From NCBI GenBank assembly GCA_947034885.2, contig OX344756.2, positions 21,373,489 to 21,437,488 of the forward strand: 64,000 bases of DNA. The letters are read 5' to 3'. Source of the stretch: Thuidium tamariscinum (Eukaryota > Streptophyta > Bryopsida > Hypnales > Thuidiaceae). The notes under the pieces were generated by a model. That model ran no database searches. It saw only the letters and a program-made list of their open reading frames with translations, and had not been told where the DNA came from. The translations under genes were made by a program, and so were the position numbers. This document shows, in pieces, positions 5,393 through 63,334 of this stretch (its first letter is position 1; each line of letters begins with the position of its first letter).

Positions 5393-7694
5393 CTACTGGC
5401 CAAACATGCGCACAACAAGGGGCAAATGCTTCCCTAACCTATTTCTATGACAAGATTTGAGAAATTTGAGAGTAGAGAAGCATCTCTCATCCTCAACTGA
5501 CCCCAACACCAAACAACATCCAATTTCAGCAAGTCTAAAGTACTCCGAGATTAGCTTACGTAAATGCAAGGATAAGTCCAATTTCCGCCATAGCTTGATG
5601 ACTGGATTCACCTGAAAAGGGGGGCCACATGTTGCCTGAGCATGAGCTTTCATGGTTACCTTAAACAATCCAGCTTGATTGTCAAGATTGGATGTTGAAA
5701 GCATTTTAGACACAGTAAATGGGCTTCCTTGACCCAATGGTTGCCCTTTGTCAAGGACTTTAGATGAAGCATAAAATTTCTTAAGCACCGCCAAATGGTG
5801 GGGAAAACTCTCATCTGCACCTTCCTGGCGCTAGTACTGGGGATAGATTATCCCAAATGCGTCCAAAAGATCTTGTTGGGCGAACCTCCGGTCCAACTTG
5901 TCACACAAGCATTGAGCCATCTCTGTAAAATTCAGGAAGTTAGTAAAAATGAACAAAGACAAATTGACAAAGTAATACCGCTCAAAGGCAGTCAGAATCT
6001 CCAATAGGCGAAGCCACATCGAACAGTGGAAAAGAAGAGTACTGCAGGCATATCAAAGAACCCCAAACAATGTTAGAAATCCACTTAGGTAACTCATTCA
6101 ACTAATCAGCTCCATCTGCCGCAATTAACTGTGGATTAACTCATTCAGGTTGATCTCCGCCACTTAAGTTACGATCAACTCACTCAGCTAGTCAACTCAA
6201 TCTACTTCGATCTGACGCAGGGAACTGAAGCCACAGTTCACGGCAAAAAAAATGGGAAATTGAAGTTAATCTCATGTTATAGATGTGAAATGAACTAACA
6301 AAAAAAATTGGAAGCTTAATATCAATTCAGTATCATATACTCATATTAACAAAAAAAAATGGGAAACTTAATGTCAATTCAGCTTTATACATACTCACAT
6401 AAAGCAAAAAAATTGGAAGCTGAATGTCAATCCAACATTGCAAGGTTTTCAAAAAAGATTAAACATTCAAACAATACAAAACCAAAAATGAAAGAGGATT
6501 GGAAATGAAAAAACTTACCTGTAAATTGCCGCTCAACATTGTCTTAAATTCTATTGAATTCTTCTTGAGTCACAAAGATGTGATTCCGTGTCTACTTGTC
6601 ATGGCAGTGGCCATACACTTGTGATTTTTCAAAATCGAACAGCAAGTGTGAAATGCCTGAGACCCCGTTAGTAGCCGCCAAGATAAAGGGACATCAGGGC
6701 AAGACAGCGAGACAAGCTCGGTATACCTCTGGAAGTCAGCTTTGGAATAAGCTGTTGCAGAGTCTAGAAACATGCGAGTCAGTTCTCCCTGGCAGAGTTT
6801 CACAACCTCCAAAAAATCACAAATGAAAATATCACGGGATTGGGACAACTTCATTAAACTGTGCACAGTATTCACTAAGGGAATGAAGCAAGCTAGGGAG
6901 AGGAGCAACTCCACATCAGACAACAAATCAAAATTTTCAGCAGCCCCAAGTTGCGGCTTGTGACTAGGGACGGAGGTCATATCAATCCCCATCTTTATTA
7001 AGAGCGTGCGATACTCAGACATAATCCGAGTAGCGGGGCTCTTCATAGAAATCCATCTGGTTTCAATGTTCCGTAACATCTTGTTATCTTTAGTTTCTAT
7101 GAGATCAGCGAGTCTTTGTAGCTCAACGTGACGGCGGTTACTGCGACAGAAATAAGCATAAACAGACTGAAACAAAGTCTCAAGTTGGGCGATCATCAGA
7201 AATTTCGACAACGTCTCAACAACAAGGTTCAAATGGTGACTTACACAACTGGCACCAATGAGAAACGGGGCCCATTTCTCACGGATCTGGGTTGTCACAC
7301 CCGTTTTTGTGCCTTGGAACGTACTCACTCCATCAACACCGAAACAGACCAACTTACAAGCAATTTCTTCACGAGTTAAGCCACCCTCACCCAACAATGC
7401 GTGCATGATAACATCAGTCAAATGAGTTGCAGTTCCATTTTCAGAAACACAAGAGAGGTGCAGAAGATGAGGCACTCTCTCCCAACTCTGCATGGCATAA
7501 ACGTGGACACCAACCCAACTTGTATTGTCCACAACTGTGACTTCATCAGCACTAATTGAAATTATGTTTGCAGCCTGGACAATACCTTTCAGAGCAGCAA
7601 GAACAGATGCATGCAAGTGCACCACATTCAAACACCTCGAAGGAGGGAAAGAGTTTTCAAAACTCAACATGCACTCATGAAAACCGAAGCACTG
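5393..7694 (-). pseudogene. hAT-superfamily transposase (ZNF862/DUF4371-like), disrupted
   Basis: The largest frame (6570-7670) carries the RNase-H-fold core: first Asp in ISADEVTVVDNTSW, second in FGVDGVSTFQGTKTGV, the CVSHHLNL Cys-His motif, then NIETRWISM and SRDIFICDF. The C-terminal part (5393-5950) has the hAT dimerisation segment with the third acidic residue in LGSVEDERCFSTLKFLKS. In-frame damage is visible: TAG at 5831-5833 where YPQYW is expected, a frameshift near 6600, and TAG (6592-6594) and TAA (6544-6546) in the following frame. A donor at 6518 (ACAG|GTAAGT) and a TACTAAC branch point (5939-5945, minus strand) show remnants of introns. The N-terminal zinc finger is not found; a stop lies just upstream of 7694. 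This was a cut-and-paste transposase or a domesticated relative; it now appears non-functional. Confidence 0.9.
6244..6436. repeat. Tandem repeat, about 51-56 bp x 3.5, in the transposase intron
   Basis: Units start at about 6244, 6300, 6351 and 6406, each with an A-run followed by ttggaag or atgggaa, then cttaatgtcaattcag and a TA-rich tail. It lies between the two conserved coding blocks of the hAT pseudogene, so it probably expanded inside an intron. Confidence 0.8.
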
Positions 7695-8190
7695 ATCTCA
7701 AGAGCGACAACGAAGAAGGAACGGCAGCGATTATGAAGGAGCGTTAATCACCATTAAGACTAACGAGGAGCATCAGCAAGAGCATTAACGCTAAACACAA
7801 AACTGCAGCTTCAGAAGCTTGTGCTACAATGCCAGGGTTTTGGCAGGCTCCCCCAAACCCTAGGCGCGCTACTTCAGACCGTTTGATGCAGCCGCCGTGC
7901 TCCAACATCGACGGACAGGGGCACTCCACGGCGATTGGATGAAAAGTTGTTAGCGCGTCGATGCTATCCATCAGTTGGATGATGAGAGAGATTTGTGATG
8001 AACGATCCCCGCACCTTGGAGATTTGGCTCAAAATCTCCTGAGGAGAGACATTTCTCCTTTGTACATTTCGCACATGTCTTTTTTTGGTAGAAAAACTAT
8101 GCATTTTAGCCAGTTTTGAGATTGTTGACAAGCAGTGATCCTAGAACTAATTTATAGAATTTAGTGTAATATGCTACCTAGTTTAGGGGA
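7695..8190. other. Upstream flank of the hAT relic
   Basis: A moderately GC-rich stretch (7740-8000) with short open frames that show no family resemblance. It could hold the lost N-terminus or end of the hAT element, but I found no matching terminal inverted repeats. Confidence 0.3.
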
Positions 8191-14029: not shown

Positions 14030-14033
14030 TTCA

Positions 14034-15717
14034 CCCCTAAAGCTGTAAGCTGCGTTTTTTGGCAACATAGCAATTTCAGGTAGCTCACTACAAATGGAGT
14101 TTTTATTTTTTTTCTTTGAAATTCTTACATAAGATGTGCTCAAGAAGTATCTTTAAGGCCCAACAATTTTCATAAATTCTGACTTTGTGGTTAAAAAGTA
14201 ATGGCATGATATGTTGTTTTCTTTACTCAGTGGACAGTCCAAGCAGGTGAAAAAACTTCTTTAACCCCTAAAGCCCTGAACAACCTTTTTTCAGATTATA
14301 ATTTTTTGGGGCAGCTCACTACAAATGGAGTTTTTGTTTGTTTTCTTTGAAATTTTGATACAATGTGTGCCCGAGGAGTAGCTTTAAGGCCCGACAATTT
14401 TCATAACTTTTGACTTCACGGTTAAAAAGTTATGGCAGGATATGTTGTTTTCTTTACTCAACGGGCAGACCGGGCAGCTGAAAAAACTTCTTCAAAAAAA
14501 CTTTTTTTTAAAAGTGAAATTTCAAATTGGTTCTTTAGGTTTATACAGACATGGGAAGATTTGAATCAATCCATTTTGATCAATGAATCAAAAGTTATGA
14601 AGATTTTGAGTTTGGGGTAGTTTGCGGCCAGTTACAGAATCTCTACAGTACAAAAAAAGTTTGAAATTCTTCATTTAATTCAATTTTTCATATTTTTGGA
14701 AAAAAATTAAAAAAAAAGGTGTAGATTGTTTATTACAACATTTTAACCATTGGGATTGAAAATTTTCAATTCCATGAATAAAATGTTCACAATTTAGTAT
14801 TTTGGCTCATTTTTTACTTCTTTCTACTTACTTATTTTTTCCTATATGTTGTACAATTCCAAATGGTTTGAAATTTTTTGAGAATGTAGCCAACTTGCAT
14901 TGAAGTATGAATTCAAAGAAAAACCACCATTTTGAATTTTCCCACAAATGTGGCCTTGTGAAGTGCAGCTGCCCGGATTTTCGCAGGGATAAAAAAACAA
15001 TTTTTGTCAATTCAAATGCTTATATCTTGCAATCTACATGGTGGAAATTTCTGAAATTTTTTCCACATGTTTACAAACCACCTTACTACAAGATCCTATG
15101 GTTTTATGAGTCAAAAATGTGTTTTAAAAAAAAAAATTGCACTTGTATTAGAAATGGCAGTTTTGGAGCATTTTTGGTGAAAACATAGTTAAGAACCTTT
15201 AAGGGTTAAGAAACTTCTTTTTTGAAAAGTTCAATTTCAAATTGATTCTTTAATTTTAAACAGACATGGAAAGCTTTGAATTATTCCATTTGGATTAAGG
15301 AGTCAAAAGTTATGAGGAATTTTAGTTTGCGGGTAGATATGGTTTTCAAAGACTCCATACCTACCTACAAACTAAAATTCCTCATAACTTTTGACTCCTT
15401 AATCTAAATGGAATGATTCAAAGATTCTTATGCCTCTATAAACCTAAAGAACCTATTTGAAATTTCACATTTTAAAAAAAAGTTTTTTTAAAGAAGTTTA
15501 TTCAGCTGCCCGAATTGCGTATCGAGTAAAGAAAACAACATATCATGCCATAACTTTTTAACCACAAAGTCAAAAGTTATGAAAGTTGTTGGGCCTTAAA
15601 GCTACTCCTTGGTCACCTCTTGTATAAAAATTTCAAATAAAAAAATAAAAACTTTATTTGTAGTGAGCTGTCTAAAATCACTATGTTGCCAAAAAACACA
15701 ACTCAAGGCTTTAGGGG
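14034..15717. mobile_element. Fold-back element with TTAA-type ends, split by a nested element
   Basis: The left end is CCCCTAAAGCTG at 14034 (flank TTCA, a decayed TTAA) and the right end is CTTTAGGGG followed by TTAA at 15718-15721. Removing the nested insert (14265-15206 plus one TTAA) leaves about 738 bp whose two halves are complementary, with a hinge near 15330 (actaaaattcctcataact versus agttatgaggaattttagt). A full relative lies at 20918-21670. Non-autonomous; no protein encoded. Confidence 0.85.
14265..15206 (-). mobile_element. 942-bp non-autonomous element nested in the fold-back, TTAA duplicated
   Basis: Flanked by TTAA at 14261-14264 and 15207-15210. Ends are CCCCTAAAGCCC and CCTTTAAGGG, a short imperfect terminal inverted repeat. 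Joining the flanks restores the host reading gaaaaaacttcTTTAAGAAACTTC with a single TTAA, which matches the uninterrupted arm of related copies. One end resembles the fold-back arms; the middle and other end recur in pieces at 17036-17666, 18700-18860, 28860-29100, 45449-46020 and 61867-62410. Assigned minus because its best match, 45449-46020, reads the other way. Confidence 0.85.
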
Positions 15718-15721
15718 TTAA

Positions 15722-19739: not shown

Positions 19740-22700
19740 ATGGCGGATGGAACAAAGCATGAAGATGGGGAAAAAAACCAAGAAGAAAAGAAAAAAATTA
19801 AACTAGAAAAAACACCTCCACCTCCATTACTAAAGACCAAAGAAGAAGTATGGAAGGAAGGTGTACCAATACCTCCTTTCTACTTTCAACCAACATTAGT
19901 AGATATGCTTGTGCCCATCAAAGCAATAAATTATAAAGATTATCCTTATTTTGGTGACATGCCATTAGACATCAGAGAACGTATTGTTGGATTGTTGCCA
20001 ATCGATTTACCGTTGGAACTTGTTTCTGATGTGAGGTGATCGTTCTTAATCACTTAAATTTTTGCATTGCTTTTTTTATCTATAAATAATGATGCAATAC
20101 ATTGATTGGTTTTTCTATATAATTTGAATTACTATAGAAGTTTCAAAATAGTAATAGTAAAACTATTATTATAAAAAAAATATGCTTATAAATTACCATT
20201 AAGAGTTTGCTTTGGTTTGACACTATTTTTTTCTAGATATGTCAAAAATAATAAAATTGTAATTGGACTTTAAAAAAATTATATTTTGATAACTAATGTT
20301 TGATGTATGTAGTTGATTATAGAAGAGAGCTATTGGAAGCAGAGATCTCTTCCAAGGTGGAGGAATTGCGATGTTGCTTGTCATGGAGATTCATGGAAAC
20401 AATTATATTTTGAGCGCAACTTGAATGATTTTCTTGAAAGGTTTAAAAATGCTAAGTTCTTCATGATTATGAGCTTTATTATCTCTATTGGAGTATTTCT
20501 ATTTAATGATCAATAAAATTTGAACTTAATAATATGTAATATAAAATATATATTTATTGTATTTTTTTAATTCATTTTCTTTTATAAAAAGTTTATGTTG
20601 ATCATATACTTGCATTCTTAGCTATGAATTGACTAAAGATTGGGAAGAAGATTTACGAGACTTAATGAAGTTGAGTGCACCATATGTGCATACTATTAAT
20701 GTTTGTAAATTTCCCTCTCATATGCAATTACTCATCATAAATGAGGAATTTAAATCGTAAGTTCAAGCAATACAATTCTCATGATTTGATGATACTTTAA
20801 TTTAACAAAAATACAATGAATGAGTTTAGATTTTGAATTTTTTTGAAATTAAATTTGAAAATTAAATTAATGTTTTGTGACACAAATATAAAATAATATA
20901 TGATTGCAGTATATTAACCCCTAAATGCAAAAATTGTGTTTTTTGGCAGCATAGCAATTTTGGGGCTTTGGGCAGCTCACTATAGGTGGAATTTTTTGTT
21001 TTTTTTCTTTGAAATTTTTATATAAGATGTGACCAAGGAGTATCTTTAAGGTTCAATAATTTTCATAATTTTTGACTCTATGGTTAAAAAGTTATTGCAT
21101 GATATGTGATTTTTGTTGATTAGCAGGCAACATGTGCAGTTCAAAAAACATCTTTTTAAAAATACTTTTTAAGGAAATTAAAATTTGAAATTGATTCTCT
21201 AGATTTATACAAGCATGGGAAGCTTTTAATCATTCCATTTGGATTGATAAGACGAAAGTCATGAGGAATTTTGGTTTGTGGGTAGGAATGGTTTTCAAAG
21301 ACTTCATACTTGTGCATGAACTAAAATTCTTCATGACTTTCATCTGATTAATCCAAATGGAATTATTCAAATTTTCCCATGTCTGTATAAACCTAAAGAA
21401 TCAATTTCAAATTTTAGTTTTAAAAAAAAGTGTTTTTTAAAGAAGTTTTTTGAGCTACACAAGCTGCCCACTAAGCAACAAAAATCACATATTATGCAAT
21501 AACTTTTTAACCACAAAGTCAAAAGTTATAAAAATTGTTGGGCCTTAAAACTACTCCTTGAGCACATCTTATGTGAAAATTTCAAAGAAAAAAATAAAAC
21601 CTCCACCACCTGTAGTGAACTGCCCAAAATTACTATGTTGCCAAAAAAACATAGTTTTTGCATTTAGGAGTTAAGTCATATTATTTACAAGGTGATATGA
21701 TAAGAACTTAAAGTAATACTAGTAATAAAGATTTTTTTGTACCCATCACATTTCAAATTCACTATATTTTGTCATTTCACAGACAAAGTTGTTTTTAGTC
21801 ATTCACTTCTATAATTTAGTCATGTCAATGACCATAAATTGCAGGAACTTATGTACACTAAAGATTGAATATGGAAAACCCAATGTTGGCATGAATTATG
21901 ATATTAAAGACTTTGGAATGCTAAACTCTGATTGTGTATCAATGACATATTTTTGTTCAGTGACACAGACACTCACTGAACTCAATTTATCATCTAATTT
22001 ATTGAAAGATCATCATGTATGCCATCATTTTCCTCCATTGTTTATTTTCCAATGTGTTAATAGCAAACTTGCTAATTTAAATGCAAATTATTTCTTAATT
22101 TCCATGGTCACAATTTATGTCTCATTTTCATCCACACAATTCTTCATTTCATTCCTTTTTGTTTAAATTATGATAGCTAACATCCAAGCATCTTATTAAC
22201 CCAAGAAGAATGCAACCCTGCTATGACTTAGATAGTTATCAAAGTACTCCAATTATTAGATCAATAGCTGCATTCTTTGTTTCTACAATGAAGTCATCCA
22301 TTAGACTTTTTATCTTTGTAGGCTTCCTTCAGGGTTAAAGAAACCTTGCATCTTGATGAAACTTTATTGCATTCAAATGGGCTTCATTTGATATATAAAA
22401 TTGAAGAGTATTTTAACAATTCAGAATTTTTAAGAAAAAAAAAATGATGCCAACTGTAGTGATTTTGTGAACAAAAAAAATTATAATTTGCAGGTGAAAA
22501 CACTTGTGGATGGAATGGTAAAAAATCCTACAATTGTGAATTTGGATCTTTCACACAACATGATTGGTGATGCTGGATGTTCATATCTTGCTAAACTTCT
22601 GGATGCAAAGAACTGTGTGCTTTTATTCCTCAACCTTTGCAACAATCAAATTAAAAAACTTGGTAAAATCTAATTTCAAATCTTTTATTATGTGGCATTT

Positions 22701-25700
22701 TATTATCAATTACTCCATACATGTTATTGTATTTTTCACTACAAAAAAATAAGGGAATAAATGACTTGTCCATAGAGTCATTGTGGACAATAGTGACTGC
22801 AAAATGACTACAAAATGACTTTTTTGTGACTATTGTTGTTCACAATGACTCTTATGGACAAGTCATTTATTCCCTTGTTTTTTTGTAGTGTTTTGTATTG
22901 TATACATTGCTATGTAAATTTGAGTTAACCATGAAGGACAAATGTTGCTTGAATGGAATGGACATTGAATGTTTGGATAGGGTCATGCAAAATCAATTGG
23001 AATGGATATTTTTGAAATTTTGATATCTAAAATTTTATACCAAAATTGACTTTGTAGGAAAGAATTTTTTTTTAATGAGGCACTTTTGTGAAGGTTTTTG
23101 TTGCCTGGAAAAATTTAGGCAATTTAGGTAGTTTGAGCATTTTTTATATTAAATACCTCATCTACTTGTGAATTTTTTTTTTGTAAATGACATGATACAA
23201 TTTACAATTAAGAAAAAGCTCAAAAGTTCATAGTCTAAGAGGAGTGAAACTTTGTAAGCTACCATAGTTGTAGGGCAAGGTCACCAAAATATAATTCTAA
23301 AAGTAAATGCCAAAGTTTTAGGGAAATAATTTTTTTTAAAACACAAAAATATGGTATGGTGAAAAAAAAAAAATTGCCAAACAAAACTTATGGTATATTG
23401 GGTAATTTTGAAAACAACATTATTTTCTTCTAATTTTGAATGTGAATATTTTTCAATCTACATCGTCAAAGATTTTCTTTAAAGGTTTCTACATATTTTA
23501 AATGTTTGTCTCTATCTTTTTACTATTCATATTTCAAAAAATCAAATCCTTCAATGCAAAAAGAATCATCAAGTAATGGTTAGTATATTCCTCATTTGGT
23601 ATTGCAAGGTAATCTAGAGTAAGGTAGATCTCTTACTCCTTTTGAAATTTGCAAGCAAACACTTAACAAGATGTATTACTCAATGAGTCAATGCTATACA
23701 AACTCAATTTTGAGTGGAGCAAAAATCTCATTTTAAGAGGGCTTAAAGTGTGTTGAACTTATTTGACAAGAATGAAAAACTTTTGCATTAACTTCAAACA
23801 ATATAATCTTTCAATTTATGAGATAAAATGGGCTCAAATTCTTTACACAAATTGTCCTACCAATCTAATACATTTGTGTAAAATTTGAATCCAAAAAAGT
23901 TATAATCTTCATTTTTATCAAGTGCACCAAAAAATGATAGTTTTTGACAATTTCACTTTAAAAAACAACCTCTGTCTAGTAAAGGTTGAAATACTACTCT
24001 AGAAATGTGCATTTCATGTAACAAATTTACCATTGCATGTGGAATTTCAAAGGAATATTTCCAGGGCTCTTTTTTTGGCTTTTTGGTGCTAGTTTGCTAA
24101 AAAACATCCAAAAATGATCTTGCTAAAAAACATCCAAAAAAATGCCTAAAAACTTGGATGAAATCACCATACAACTTTGAAATAAAGAAAAATATTAGAT
24201 GAATTTGCCTACATTTGGATGAAAGCCATACTATACATCCAAAAAATGGATGAACATTGCAATTCAGAGCATCCTTATAACATTTTATGTTGCCACTGTG
24301 GCTATTCTCCAAAAATGCAAAAAAAAGTCCTGAATGTTTCAAAATAAAAACAAAAGTGTCTTTGTTATGACAATGAAACTGCATCAAAGGTAACATATAT
24401 CAAATTGTTGCATTAACAATAAAGACAATGTTTCTGAAATAAAAGACTATTGCAGGTACCCGAGCCATAGGATATTCTTTATCAGCCAATAAAAGTTTAT
24501 TGTCATTAAATTTACGGCTAAATGACCTAGGAGATTATGGTGGTCACCGCATATTTGACTACATGATGGACAATCAAGTCATTCGGGTTAACCCTTAAGC
24601 GTCTCAATCCTTTTTTGAATTTTTGCACATTTTCATTTATAGCTTTGTACAGATATATCATTTTCCAGAATTTAATGAATTTGGTCATTAAAGAAGATTG
24701 TCTTTTTTAGATTCAAGTATTACATTTGACAAATGAGAGGTTAAGTGGATGAAATAGGGCCTTGAAGCCCTCTATTCATCGTCCAGAATATGGACGTCGG
24801 TGTGCTTTAGGGTTAAGGATATATTTAAAACTTTCATTTATTTCTTACTTTACAATACCTCAACCCCAGAAAGACAGGTTGGGCGCCATGGAAATTGGCT
24901 TTTTTGGGACCATGTCATTCATTTGCTTTAAAAAAGCCAAGAGTATTCATTGACGGTCAAATTACTGTGCAAGACCTCCCCTTCTCACACAAAATTTCAA
25001 GGATGAACATTTGTACTTTTGTCCTGTATATAAGAATTCTTTGTCATCCATTGTTTATGTAGTGTCCAGAGTGTCCATATGGGGTTAAAGGATTTTAAGT
25101 TTTAAGGTAATTAAGGTAGAAGGCTTTTTTAAATGGAGCGGGTTTTAAAATGGTGCCCTACCTTAAATGTACAATATTGTACATGTTGCTTTTTCATAGC
25201 CTTTAGTAGTGTATTGACAGTGTACCAATTTTAGCTAGGGCACCATTTTAGAGTCTTATGTTCTTTCAACTTCAAAATTTGATAACTAATTCAACAAATC
25301 TGTAAAAAATACAAAAAAAACTTGAGTTAGATGTCAATTCCATTTGTCTTTCAATGAAAATATACTGAAAAATATTTCAAGATGTTTCACCTCTCCAAAA
25401 TTCAATTTCAGCCCTTAGATGGGTGATTACTGAGCCTTCTACCTTACGCTTAAAATCACTCATATAAGCAATTCAGTATGGTTCCCATTGATATATTAGA
25501 AACTTTTTGTGGAGCCTTGTTGGTAGTCAAAAGGGTATTCCAGATTCTCTTGGAATGCATTTTGTGGATATAATATGAATAAACTATGAATATTCAAAGT
25601 GCTGAAAATTAGGTGTTTCGAAAGCTGACTGTAAACTCTCATGAATGATGGAAATATGTTTTAGACAAAAATCTAGAGAGTGTGGTTCTACAAAGCGGTC

Positions 25701-26379
25701 AAAATTAAGTGTAAGGTAGGGGGCTGTAAAAGCGACCCTGTCTCTAAAAGTGATCTCGTAGATTTTGCCTCTAACATGTACCAGAAGTGTACATTTCAGG
25801 AGGGGTTGCTTTTAGAAACCACTGTGTTTTCAACTTCAAAAATCCATTACTAATTCCGTGAAGGTCCAAAAAATATGAAACGACTTAAATTCACTTCCAT
25901 GGTCATCAATCTAATGTAAAGTGCTGAATGGACTTTCAATGCAGAGATTGAGTATGTCAGCAACAGGGTTCACAGCCGAAGGAGTGGAAGCATTAGCAAA
26001 ATTGCTCCATTTACCGCAATCTGAGCTTGTGCACCTTGATATTTCAGCCAATCCAGGCATTGGGGCTGCAGGAGGGCAACTGATCTACACGGGGCTTTTA
26101 GCCCAAAAGAAAATGAAAGAGTTATATGTGAAGAAATGTGGCATTGGAGCAGAGTTGGAGGCTAAATTTGAGGCTTTGCTAATGGCCCGCAAATTTGACG
26201 AAGAAGACTTATTCTTAGAGGAAGAGAAGAAGAAAGAAGAAGAGGAAAAGAAAAAGAAAGAAGAGGAAGAGAAGAGGAAGGATAGTCTTGATGCTAGGGC
26301 TAGTGTGAATGTAGAGTCTGTTGGAGATAGTTCACTTGACAAGGGTAATGAGAAAAAGGAATTGGATGATAAAGCATGA
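19740..26379 (+). CDS. DRC5: Dynein regulatory complex subunit 5 (TCTE1), LRR protein of the flagellar axoneme
   Basis: Seven exons: 19740-20030, 20313-20440, 20622-20756, 21845-22016, 22494-22662, 24456-24586 and 25945-26379. Phases agree throughout and give 486 residues, close to animal TCTE1 (about 500). The start is the first ATG (MADGTKHEDG); residues 1-45 are charged and proline-rich. Diagnostic segments follow: LPIDLPLELVSD, ESYWKQRS, RNCDVACHGDSWKQLYFERN and VGMNYDIKDFGM. Leucine-rich repeats run from about residue 190 (LTELNLSSNLL, IVNLDLSHNMIGD, FLNLCNNQI, LLSLNLRLNDLGD, LVHLDISANPGIG). A Lys/Glu-rich probable coiled coil occupies about 425-486. The nexin-dynein regulatory complex links doublets and tunes dynein, so in plants this gene should act only in flagellated sperm. 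Introns 3, 5 and 6 are loaded with mobile elements. Confidence 0.93.
20918..21670. mobile_element. 753-bp fold-back element in DRC5 intron 3
   Basis: Flanked by TTAA at 20914-20917 and 21671-21674; ends are CCCCTAAATGCAAAAA and TTTTTGCATTTAGGAG. The two arms, about 375 bp each, are complementary nearly end to end, with a hinge near 21300. A transcript through the intron would fold into a long hairpin. Same family as 14034-15717. Confidence 0.9.
22737..22890. mobile_element. 154-bp CACTA-type MITE in DRC5 intron 5
   Basis: Ends are CACTACAAAAAAATAAGGGA and its complement (TCCCTTGTTTTTTTGTAGTG), flanked by TTT on both sides (a possible 3-bp duplication, ambiguous in a T run). The arms pair for about 60 bp through gaataaatgacttgtccata. 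CACTACAA-type termini and 3-bp duplications are typical of CACTA/EnSpm elements. Confidence 0.85.
24060..24330. repeat. Dispersed repeat, copy of 4180-4440
   Basis: Same motif order as the copy downstream of PSMA6 (aaacatccaaaaa, gatgaatttgcctac, ccaaaaaatggatgaa, acattttatgttgcca). It lies in DRC5 intron 5, just before exon 6. Confidence 0.75.
24592..24812. mobile_element. 221-bp TTAA-flanked MITE at the DRC5 intron 6 donor
   Basis: TTAA at 24588-24591 and 24813-24816; ends CCCTTAAGCGTC and GTGCTTTAGGG. The left TTAA begins at intron position +2, so the T of the GT donor belongs to the target-site copy. A further TTAA-adjacent terminus of the same kind (CATATGGGG|TTAA) follows at 25081-25088, together with an arm resembling the 35975 element. 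Confidence 0.8.
25143..25440. repeat. Inverted copy of the 11640-11980 dispersed repeat, in DRC5 intron 6
   Basis: Inverted repeat 25143-25253 (ttttaaaatggtgccctac ... agggcaccattttagag), followed by the reverse complement of the 11660-11870 body (caattccatttgtctttcaa, tttcaagatgtttc). A weaker third copy, 25700-25910, reaches almost to the final exon. Confidence 0.65.
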
Positions 26380-40980: not shown

Positions 40981-41857
40981 GATCGCGACTAAATGATAAG
41001 ATACGAGAAATTGGAAGTGCGAGAGTGCGAAACTGCGACGCTACAACAACGATCGGTGAGTGCCGGAGTCGTGTCGATCGAGCTCTGTTTCTAAAGATAC
41101 TTTTTCGCCCTTGGAGGAACCAGTATGGAATCGCAATCGAACAATGGGAACGAGAATTTGGAGAGCGAAACTGCGGAACTGTAATTCTACAACAACGAAC
41201 GGCGATTGCAATTAATGTGTCTAGCGTGCTCTGTTTCTAATGAAAAATTTCGATCATTGGGAGACTCGTTTCGTGATCGCAATTGAATGATAGGTAAGTA
41301 GGAATTGTAGTGCGAAAATTTCGAAACTGCTCGTCGATTTCAATTGATGTGTCTATCGTGCTCTATTCCCAATGAAAATTTTCGGTCTTTTCAGAGACTC
41401 GTTTTGCGATCGCAATTGAGTGATAAGTAACTAGGAATTGAAGCGCGAAACTCCGAAACTGCAAAACTTCAACAACAAACGGCAATTGCCAGTGTCGGAT
41501 CTACCGTGCTCTGTTTCTAAAGGAAATTTTCCACTCTTCGAAAGACTCGTTTTGCGATCGCAACTGACTGATGAGAAACAAAGAATTCAGAGTGCGAAAG
41601 TGCGAAAGTGCAATGCTACTACAACGACCAGCGATTGCACGTTGTTCAGTCTACCGTGCTCTACATGAAATGAAATTTCCTGGTCTTTCAGACACTCGTT
41701 TTGCGACCGCAATTGAATGATTGGAAACAACATTTGGAGTGCCAAAGTGAAAACTCGAAAGCTCCGGCAATCAACTTCCCCAACTACGATCGCTTCCCTC
41801 GTGCCGCCGACAGTGCTCTGTTTCTACAGATAATTTCTCCTCGACGAACGCGTTTTG
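40981..41857. repeat. Tandem array with about 147-bp period, six copies, upstream of NDL
   Basis: Units start with GATCGCAATTGA-like text at 40981, 41128, 41275, 41408, 41556 and 41705, giving spacings of 147, 147, 133, 148 and 149. Each unit continues with agtgcgaaa, ctacaacaacga, gcgattgca, cgtgctctgtttct and ends agactcgttttgc. Copies are diverged but colinear. The array begins about 190 bp before the NDL start codon, so it occupies the promoter or 5' leader region. Not coding. Confidence 0.88.
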
Positions 41858-42014
41858 GAATTGAAACCGCCTCCACTGCGGGAAACCAAAAAATCTGCTG
41901 AGGCGGTAAGTAGAAATTGGAAGACACGCAGATGCAACGGGCGAATAATAGGAACGCAAGCGCCGTCGGCTCCGTGTGATGGCATTTTCCGCGAGAGTGG
42001 GAGGGAGGGAAGTG

Positions 42015-42291
42015 GGTCCCGGAGTTTCCGACCTAGTAACTTTCCGACCTACCAGATGACTGCAACCGACTTGGGAACCCACACGGTCTGTGCTGTGCCT
42101 TAATGCCTTTGAGCTGGTTGGTCTCGGAGTTTGCGACCTTGTGACTTTCCGACCTGCCCGACGACTGCGACCGACTAGGGAACCCACACGGTCTGTGCTG
42201 TGCTTTCGCTCTGGTTGGTCCCCGAGTTTGCGACCTTGTGAATTTGCGACCTGCTAGGCGAGAGCGACCGACTCGGAAGACCCACACGGTC
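42015..42291. repeat. Tandem array, about 100 bp x 3, farther upstream of NDL
   Basis: Units begin GGTCCCGGAGTTT at 42015, 42120 and 42217. Each has gcgacctngtgactttccga, cgaccgact and acccacacggtctgtgctgt. GC-rich relative to the window; separate in sequence from the 147-bp array. Confidence 0.88.
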
Positions 42292-42562: not shown

Positions 42563-43495
42563 GCACATGAAGGACCATAGACTTTTTAGGGGAAAAAAAC
42601 ACTCAAAACTGCCAATTCTATTGCAAAGAGTAAAAAAATTTGAAAATTGTTTTTTCTTTCACATCTACTCATAAAATCTGACACCTTAATAGTATGAACA
42701 TTTGCAGAGTATATTTCAGAAACTTTGACAACACAAATTTGAAGATATTTGTGTTTTTAAGTAAAGAAAACAAGTTTTTTTGGCACCTACGCCTTGATTA
42801 TTTGATTTTAAACCTCCATAACTTAATTTTTAGAACTATAGAATTTTTGGGTTTTAATATTTGTTGTAAATAATTGAATTGAGAGTTTAGAAAAAAAAAA
42901 TCTATATAAAAAAAAGAAAAGAAAATTTTATTTTCATATTGAAAAAAATTGTTTAGTAGAAGTAGGTACAAGATAGAAGGAAATTGAAATTATTAGTATC
43001 TTTAAGATGGAATTGAAACACACTAATCCCAATGATGAGATTGTTCAACTAAGCAAACTAAACTATGGGGATTTTTTTTTAAATTATAAAAATTGAGTTC
43101 AAAGATAAATTCAACACACTATTTTCTAAAGTAGTTGCTATGATTGCTTGTAAAATAAGATGGTCTACAACTTTCACATCACCTATCTAAATGGAATAAA
43201 TCAATGTTTTCTATATAGACAAAAATATAATCTATGAGAAAATAAATCATAAATTTAAAAAAAATTTAAAAAAATTTGAATCTTCTTAACTACCTAGTGT
43301 TCCTTGTTTAGGATTTATTTGACGTAACTTTTGCTCCTATGCATCAAATGAAAGTTAATATTTCAAAAATTACGTTCTCAAAAAGCTAATGTATTTTTCT
43401 ATTTTGAGAAAAAATATCAAAAATCTTAACAAAAATAAAGACCATACTACCATAGGTACTTGTTAGAAACCTAAGGAACAATGGTCCTTTAGGGC
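42563..43495 (+). mobile_element. 933-bp TTAA-type element, sister of 62415-63334
   Basis: Terminal inverted repeat AAGGACCATAGAC (left) against CCTAAAGGACCATTGTTCC (complement of the right end); flanks TTTA and TTAA. The interior is colinear with 62415-63334 (actgccaattctat, gagtaaaaaa, gaagtaggtac(a/g)agatag, gcactaatcc). No open frame of note; non-autonomous. Confidence 0.82.
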
Positions 43496-45448: not shown

Positions 45449-46020
45449 CCCTTAAATGGTTTTGACTATATTTTGGAGTGGTGAAAATGACAATTTTGGA
45501 GTGTTTATTTATGGAATTGAAAAATGCAATCCCAATAATTAAAATATTGTAGTAAAAATCTACAACTATTGTTTTTATTTATTTTTTCCAAAATATTAAG
45601 AATTGAATTAAATAAAGGACTTCAAAAAAAATTTGTAGTGTAGAGATTCTATAATGAGCTGCAAACTACCCCAGACTAAAGATCTTCATAACTTTTGACT
45701 CATTGATCAGAATGGAATGATTCAAATCTTTCTACTTAAATAAAAATATAATAAATCAATTTGAGATTTTTATTTATTAAAAAAATAATTCTTAAAGAAT
45801 TTTTTTCTACTACTAAAATTGCTCGTTGAGTAATGAAAACTTCATATCTTATAAGAACTTTTTAATTATGTAGTCAAAGCTATGAAATTTGTTGGGCCTG
45901 GAAGCTACTCCTTAGGCACATGTGTGAAAATATTAAAGGAAAAGAATAAAATGTCCATTTGTAATGAGCTGCTTGAAATTGCTATGTTGCCAAAAAAAAC
46001 TCAATTTGGACATTGAGGGG
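45449..46020 (+). mobile_element. 572-bp TTAA-flanked element
   Basis: TTAA at 45445-45448 and 46021-46024; ends CCCTTAAATGG and ACATTGAGGGG. The left portion matches the 15206 end of the nested 942-bp element, and the right portion matches the fold-back arm (gttgggcctggaagctactc, attgctatgttgccaaaaaa). A shorter, complete-looking member of the same family. Confidence 0.85.
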
Positions 46021-62414: not shown

Positions 62415-63334
62415 TCCCTAAAGAACCAAGCCCTGTTTTCTGCCCAAAAACACTAAAAACTGCCAATTCTATAGCAAAGAGTAAAAAACAATTAATTCAT
62501 TTTTTTTCACATCTAACCATAGGATCTTATACCTCACTAGTCTAAGATAGTGTGAAAAAAAATTCAAAATTTTTAACCGCACAAATTACAAGATATTTGC
62601 ATTTAAAGTAGGAAAAACAAGTTTTTTAGCACATTATGGGACTGGATTTTTTGACTTTGAACATTTTTAACTTAAAAATTTTGCACTTAAGAGTTTTGAA
62701 ATTTAATTATTTCTAGTAAAAAATTGAGTTGAGAATCTAGGGAAAAAAAATAAATTCAAAAAAACTTAATTTTCATTCTTAAAAAAATTGGTAAGTAGAA
62801 GTAGGTACGAGATAGAAGGAAAATCTAAAATATTAATATCTTTTAGATGGAATTAAAATGCACTAATCCTAATGGTGAGATTGTTCTAGCAAGTAAACTA
62901 AACCATGAAAATTTTGTTTTTTTGAAAAATTGCAAAAATTACATCCAGAAATGAATCCTACAAGTTATTTTTTTCAAGAAAATGCTCTAATTGCCCGAAA
63001 AACAAGAATGTCCATAACTTTCTCATAACAAATCCAAATAAAATGAATCAAAGCTTCCTAGATAGAAAAAAATATAATCTATAAGAAAAAAAATTCAAAA
63101 AAAAATTTCAAAATTTTTCTTTGCTGCCCAAACTGCCCGCCGTCCCCTGTTTTGAGGTTATTTGGGCATAACTTTTGTTCCCGGTCACCGATTGAAAAAA
63201 AATAATATCCCCACGAAGATATTCAATTTTTCTATCTTTAAAAAAAGTTTCAAAAAATTAGGAAAAAAATTCAACCCGTAGGTACATGCCCAAAATTGCA
63301 TTTGTCCCCCGAAGGGACAATGGTCCTTTAGGGG
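62415..63334 (+). mobile_element. 920-bp TTAA-type element, sister of 42563-43495
   Basis: Left end CCCTAAAGAACCAAGCCCTG (flank TGAA), right end GACAATGGTCCTTTAGGGG (flank TTAA at 63335-63338). Better preserved on the right than the 42.5-kb copy. Inserted in the 61867-62410 element. No open frame. Confidence 0.85.

Follow-up and report, generated by a model that had tools for sequence, protein, structure and literature searches.

The nested arrangement at positions 14034-15717 of the window (the whole stretch of 64,000 nucleotides analysed here) raises the question of what kind of mobile element inserts itself into the tetranucleotide TTAA in this genome, and where the enzyme that moved it is encoded. 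The first-pass annotation of this DNA had read the locus as a piggyBac-like MITE family in a plant-lineage genome. We followed up this reading in the complete 363-Mb assembly, which consists of 19 contigs and carries the window on contig C8 (G000:C8:21373489-21437488). We conclude with high confidence that the insert is a non-autonomous piggyBac miniature and that a piggyBac transposase whose gene lies at another place in this genome inserted it into a TTAA within a related miniature.

The nested insert and its target

The insert reads CCCCTAAAGCCC...CCTTTAAGGG, has the termini CCCCTAAAG and CTTTAAGGG, is 97.0% identical to the majority sequence of 21 copies (the insert itself among them), and contains no stop-to-stop frame of 110 codons or more. 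TTAA abuts it on both sides, as the first-pass annotation had described (Table 1). Assignment to Stowaway or Tourist, which duplicate TA or the 3-bp TAA/TTA, was rejected because the four-base TTAA is found on both sides instead. The ends of the miniature, CCCCTAAAG...CTTTAGGGG, fit the CCY...RGG termini of piggyBac. TTAA by itself occupies 0.8% of the positions in the window, which is the background rate, and the longer pattern TTAACCCYTAA has 7 matches there compared to 0.12 expected, a number reached in none of 100 dinucleotide-preserving shuffles. The window contains no Rfam match at gathering scores and no tRNA detected by ARAGORN.

After excision of the insert and one TTAA, the outer fold-back is 739 bp long, and its left part aligns with its own other arm unbroken across the junction (82% over 513 columns), so that the arm is indeed continuous, as had been claimed. 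The outer element is flanked by TTCA on the left (14030-14033) and by TTAA on the right (15718-15721), i.e., by a single intact TTAA. The start of the insert is itself a copy of the host arm, with 80% identity over the shared 231 bp (direct repeat 14030-14260 and 14261-14491). From this shared sequence we read the locus as one family member having jumped into a sister element, and the insert and its target both belong to one piggyBac-derived group.

Table 1. Coordinates of the nested locus and of related elements in the window
Feature	Position	Strand	Remarks
Inserted non-autonomous piggyBac-type element	14265..15205	+	941 bp; typical family length about 944 bp
Left TTAA (target-site copy) flanking the insert	14261..14264	.	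abuts insert start
Right TTAA (target-site copy) flanking the insert	15206..15209	.	abuts insert end
Outer fold-back with long inverted arms, non-autonomous, interrupted	14034..15717	.	arms, flanks, full-length relatives L084, L085, L086, L087, L091
Right arm of outer fold-back	15355..15717	-	pairs I1-I5, 82-86% complementary (five longest)
Second fold-back copy	20918..21670	.	TTAA both sides (20914-20917, 21671-21674)
Miniature of another family, 221 bp	24592..24812	.	TTAA both sides
Related copy, 572 bp	45449..46020	.	TTAA both sides
Member of another abundant family, 920 bp	62415..63334	.	left TGAA, right TTAA; 40 scored of 7,399 first-look candidates

Other copies in the window

The initial observation was confirmed except for one of the other sites at which related copies had been named (42563). 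TTAA is present on both sides at 20918, 24592 and 45449 and on one side only at 62415 and 35975, no partner end being identified for the latter, and no TTAA-bounded terminus was found at 42563. When the miniature at 24592 was used as a query with its TTAA included, 35 of the 40 scored places (the window's own among them) matched end to end, out of 1,551 candidates. With the element at 62415 as the query, the alignment starts at query base 3 in 35 of the 39 other places scored, as would be expected if one base of the window's TGAA had changed.

The window also contains a frame at 25915-26376 whose leucine-rich repeat match narrowly misses the curated cut-off; it is possibly an exon of a host gene near the miniature at 24592. 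Minus-strand frames at 5396-7697 have the looks of a hAT-type transposase remnant; the smaller frame matches Dimer_Tnp_hAT at E 0.077, below the cut-off, and the larger one has no Pfam match. A repeated HSTDRVGS peptide is found in a minus-strand frame at 41774-42253.

Copies and TTAA flanks in the complete genome

A 491-base arm query yielded 5,806 first-look candidates, which are unconfirmed copies, and 40 of them were scored. Twenty family copies were fetched from the best-scoring places, a choice that favours well-preserved copies, and all 20 are full-length (921-947 bp). Together with the copy in the window they have a mean pairwise identity of 94.9% (range 92.1-97.4, calculated with rows L023 and L032 extending 17-27 bases beyond their 3' ends). 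TTAA flanks all 20 fetched copies on the 5' side and 18 of them on the 3' side (the exceptions are TTAT and ATAA), or 21/21 and 19/21 when the window's copy is included, and the surroundings of the copies are unrelated (mean ungapped identity 0.29 and 0.28 over 100 bp). With its many copies, uniform size and no transposase, the family of the insert is a MITE family, which at 944 bp exceeds most MITEs in length.

The genome-wide frequency of TTAA flanks, a check that the first-pass annotation had proposed, was obtained from complete whole-genome counts of two exact termini. The 15-mer terminus CCCCTAAAGCCCTGA occurs at 932 places and is directly preceded by TTAA at 867 of them (93.0%), and the 19-mer that forms the right terminus of the element at 62415-63334 occurs at 632 places, with TTAA in front at 584 (92.4%); TTAA is thus missing at 65/932 and 48/632 exact termini. 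The reversed control patterns of both termini occur at 0 places. We also observed facing pairs of TTAA-preceded CCCCTAAAGCCCTGA about 950 or about 750 bp apart (e.g., G000:C1:4317592-4318541), which may represent another symmetric subfamily in addition to the fold-back.

Empty sites

The proposed search for empty sites was run with a 262-base query made by joining the two flanks of the insert; it gave 69 matches from 40 scored of 3,835 candidates, and 53 of the matches span all 262 bases. Fold-back relatives do carry the site of the insert unoccupied: the insert is absent in all eight loci read, and the junction contains TTAA in seven and GTAA in one. Six loci share the junction CTTCTTTAA of the window. 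In L084 the TTAA is preceded by one T fewer, and in L090 it is replaced by GTAA. Five of the eight loci align as full-length fold-backs of 734-752 bp, namely L084, L086 and L091, with TTAA on both sides, and L085 (left ATAA) and L087 (right CTAA), with TTAA on one side. The remaining loci, L088, L089 and L090, have TTAA on the left and a right end that did not align as a terminus.

piggyBac transposase genes

A search with PF13843 (DDE_Tnp_1_7) found 659 first-look candidates; 116 were scored, all of them over the cut-off, and the matched stretch is free of in-frame stops in 74 and contains one in 42. The same family has no matches in any of 14 control genomes. The matches are spread over contigs C1-C10, nine of which have a known length, each at least 24 Mb, and stray contamination is unlikely because the transposase matches sit on contigs of this size. 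None of the 19 stretches that matched when viral contigs were scanned with the transposase alignment was a relative.

Five transposases were translated, with stop-to-stop frames of 630-1,023 codons. Residues D676, D781, D897 and C994, C997, C1008, C1013, C1017, H1022 are invariant in all five proteins; the three aspartates align with those of piggyBat, and the C-terminal Cys/His cluster is common to all five. We take D676, D781 and D897 to correspond to D268/D346/D447 of the T. ni transposase. A phmmer search of the PDB with P0001, the first of the five, matched the piggyBat transposase 9c0f (1.1e-27) and the transposase 6x67 (1.1e-22). Pairwise identity among the five is 36-44%, except for L018 and L094, which are 55% identical. 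A divergent transposase lineage (L015) is also seen between CCCTTAAATGACCCTGGGGAC-type termini adjoining TTAA (L041:868-1190, L042:192).

Elements that carry both a transposase and similar ends

The first-pass annotation had further proposed a search for a DDE_Tnp_1_7 gene with matching ends, and three elements have such a gene between ends that resemble those of the miniatures, although the resemblance (63-75%) falls short of identity. The element L094:1848-9412 (7,565 bp) has TTAA at both ends and a stop-free frame of 630 codons with a DDE_Tnp_1_7 match at 1.9e-78; L095:2616-9060 (6,445 bp) has TTAA on both sides and in-frame stops in the transposase match; and the L018 element (5,135 bp) has TTAA on both sides and a stop-free transposase. 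A second stop-free frame of 412 codons lies on the transposase strand at L094:7337-8572 and has no Pfam match up to E 0.1. The element L039:1943-7030 (5,088 bp, 1,023-codon frame) carries a transposase as well, and all four elements have CCC at both ends.

Ends were compared by using the first 210 and the last 190 bases of the miniature, with z calculated from 60 mononucleotide shuffles. The first 210 bp match the right end of L094 (71%, z 19.2) and that of L095 (63%, z 12.5). For the last 190 bp, similarity is 75% to the L018 element at its right end (z 14.4) and 70% to L095 at its left end (z 11.4). The match to L094 at its left end is weaker (z 6.5); the left terminus of L094, CCCCTAAAGGTTTT, is the same as the miniature's other terminus over 14 bp. 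The BLAST alignments stay in exact register with the terminus in L094 and L018 and are off by no more than 3 bases in L095. The fold-back resembles the right end of L094 with its first 210 bases as well (z 13.5). L039 serves as a negative control: its ends have z of at most 2.9 throughout in comparison with the miniatures and share the terminal bases alone. As judged from the ends, the miniatures look derived from the L094/L095/L018 group; the similarity to the 944-bp family is 63-75% throughout, and no element is a close match at both ends. Ten scored transposase places on C1 below 41.7 Mb were compared by eye with the exact CCCCTAAAGCCCTGA matches listed; none of them has one within 10 kb, and the smallest distance is about 15 kb.

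A family with signs of recent movement

L039 belongs to a family with ten other copies. Their frames are as long as that of L039, and all ten received an identical score, 0.2 bits lower than L039's. The sequenced ends of these ten copies equal those of L039 (1,286 of 1,286 bases on the right, 1,014 of 1,014 on the left), and TTAA is present on each side of all 11 copies in flanks that differ. Identical ends of 11 copies in different flanks point to recent movement of this family, which is distinct from the family of the miniatures.

Position L039:968 was considered as the left end of the L039 element and rejected, the ten other copies placing that end at L039:1943. The interval L039:900-1980 contains two occurrences of the flank GGTTAGGTTAGAAGC, both followed by TTAA and a CCC terminus (at 964 and 1939), as if two piggyBac-type ends had a duplicated target region in common.

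Mechanism and alternative explanations

The insertion most likely followed the usual piggyBac mechanism. The transposase would recognise a terminus of the CCCCTAAAG type together with subterminal sequence, would cut the miniature out, and would join it to a TTAA, which would leave TTAA on both sides. From the resemblance of the ends we infer that the L094/L095/L018 group, rather than another piggyBac group, probably moved the miniatures and that this group presumably is or was active. An unlikely but conceivable variant within the piggyBac explanation is that the miniatures come from the L094/L095/L018 group and were moved by another one, such as that of L039, through a short shared terminus. 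L039 represents the family with identical copies, and its right terminus CCCCTAAACGCC equals 12 bp of the terminus of a full-length miniature relative in L040 (81.6% over 952 columns); however, the subterminal sequence of the miniatures resembles L094, L095 and L018 and is unlike that of L039.

Explanations outside of piggyBac are far less probable. TTAA by itself names no superfamily, and the miniatures could in principle belong to Sola3 or another TTAA-specific superfamily, with the piggyBac genes being unrelated residents of the same genome. We consider this very improbable, given the terminal and subterminal likeness to elements bearing DDE_Tnp_1_7, a likeness that stops at the terminus, and given that the ends are CCC...GGG, as piggyBac ends are described in PMC2872659 and PMC10813416. 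That recombination or tandem duplication of the arms produced the nesting without transposition would agree with the insert opening with a copy of the surrounding arm (80% over 231 bp), but the insert is a complete family member with both of its ends found at 20 other places in unrelated flanks, has TTAA on both sides, and occupies a site that is empty in relatives, so this explanation is scarcely credible. Transposition by a piggyBac enzyme is the best explanation of the locus, and the initial reading of a piggyBac-like MITE is supported by the TTAA frequency, the empty sites and DDE_Tnp_1_7 in similar-ended elements.

Comparison with known systems

The elements share with the piggyBac superfamily (PF13843; 9c0f, 6x67) the TTAA target, the CCC...GGG ends, the DDE_Tnp_1_7 domain, the three aspartates and the C-terminal Cys/His cluster. 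They differ in that the host is a land plant, in the frame lengths (630-1,023 codons in five proteins) and in the element lengths (5.1-7.6 kb in four elements). The coral CMITEs (PMC2872659) likewise have TTAA and CC[C/T]T ends, are noncoding, and coexist with similar-ended piggyBac elements in the same genome; they are about 100 bp long, whereas family lengths in the present genome are 221 bp, about 740 bp for the fold-back and about 920-944 bp. The piggyBac-type MITEs of angiosperms resemble ours in having a plant host and a piggyBac classification, and differ in that no autonomous partner is named in the relevant passage of PMC10004981, while similar-ended elements bearing a transposase are present in this genome.

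Host lineage and earlier reports

That the genome is of plant lineage, as the first-pass annotation had assumed, is borne out by LEAFY and LHC proteins, whose sequences show the host to be a land plant. For LEAFY, a single place has two nearby stretches that match the C-terminal domain, the larger match having in-frame stops that we read as an intron. The LHC family has 49 matches and was also matched in one of the 14 control genomes (a cyanobacterium). In the PDB, a translated LHCII frame matches 8htu and 7xqp at 454 bits, second to one multi-domain LHC chain, with others starting at 431 bits. The host is probably a moss, 8htu and 7xqp being Physcomitrium structures and an aspartate, as found in one of the LEAFY stretches, being characteristic of mosses.

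The first-pass annotation had proposed that an active TTAA-specific transposase existed in a lineage where piggyBac is not commonly reported. Transposase genes are indeed present; the second part has to be amended, since piggyBac is not unreported in plants. A compilation names PiggyBac as one of the superfamilies shared by every group it covers, land plants among them (PMC4438587), a review lists it among angiosperm MITE superfamilies (PMC10004981), piggyBac-like elements are said to exist in plants (PMC8086355), and a fern repeat table gives 1,230 PiggyBac copies at 0.00% (PMC6890710). TTAA and CCC ends are given for piggyBac in PMC2872659 and PMC10813416. In PMC10619864, at least one of the two text matches is the word 'piggybacking'. 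In the open-access literature, no title or abstract among the matches listed concerns a native moss piggyBac.

The kind of transposon is therefore already known, and the host and the abundance are the news. The evidence does allow several divergent transposase lineages and several miniature families in one land-plant genome. We give about an even chance to the full reading of a land plant, probably a moss, in which piggyBac is an abundant DNA-transposon superfamily with several divergent transposase lineages and miniature families and at least one family that moved so recently that the sequenced ends of its copies cannot be told apart; it would possibly be the earliest description of a native piggyBac system still mobile in a plant.

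Widely used as a seamless tool for gene delivery, piggyBac would, if this reading is true, have a plant-native counterpart from a genome with more than 100 scored transposase matches, similar-ended miniatures and recently moved copies. The genome would also offer a natural setting for the entry, spread and silencing of piggyBac elements in land plants.
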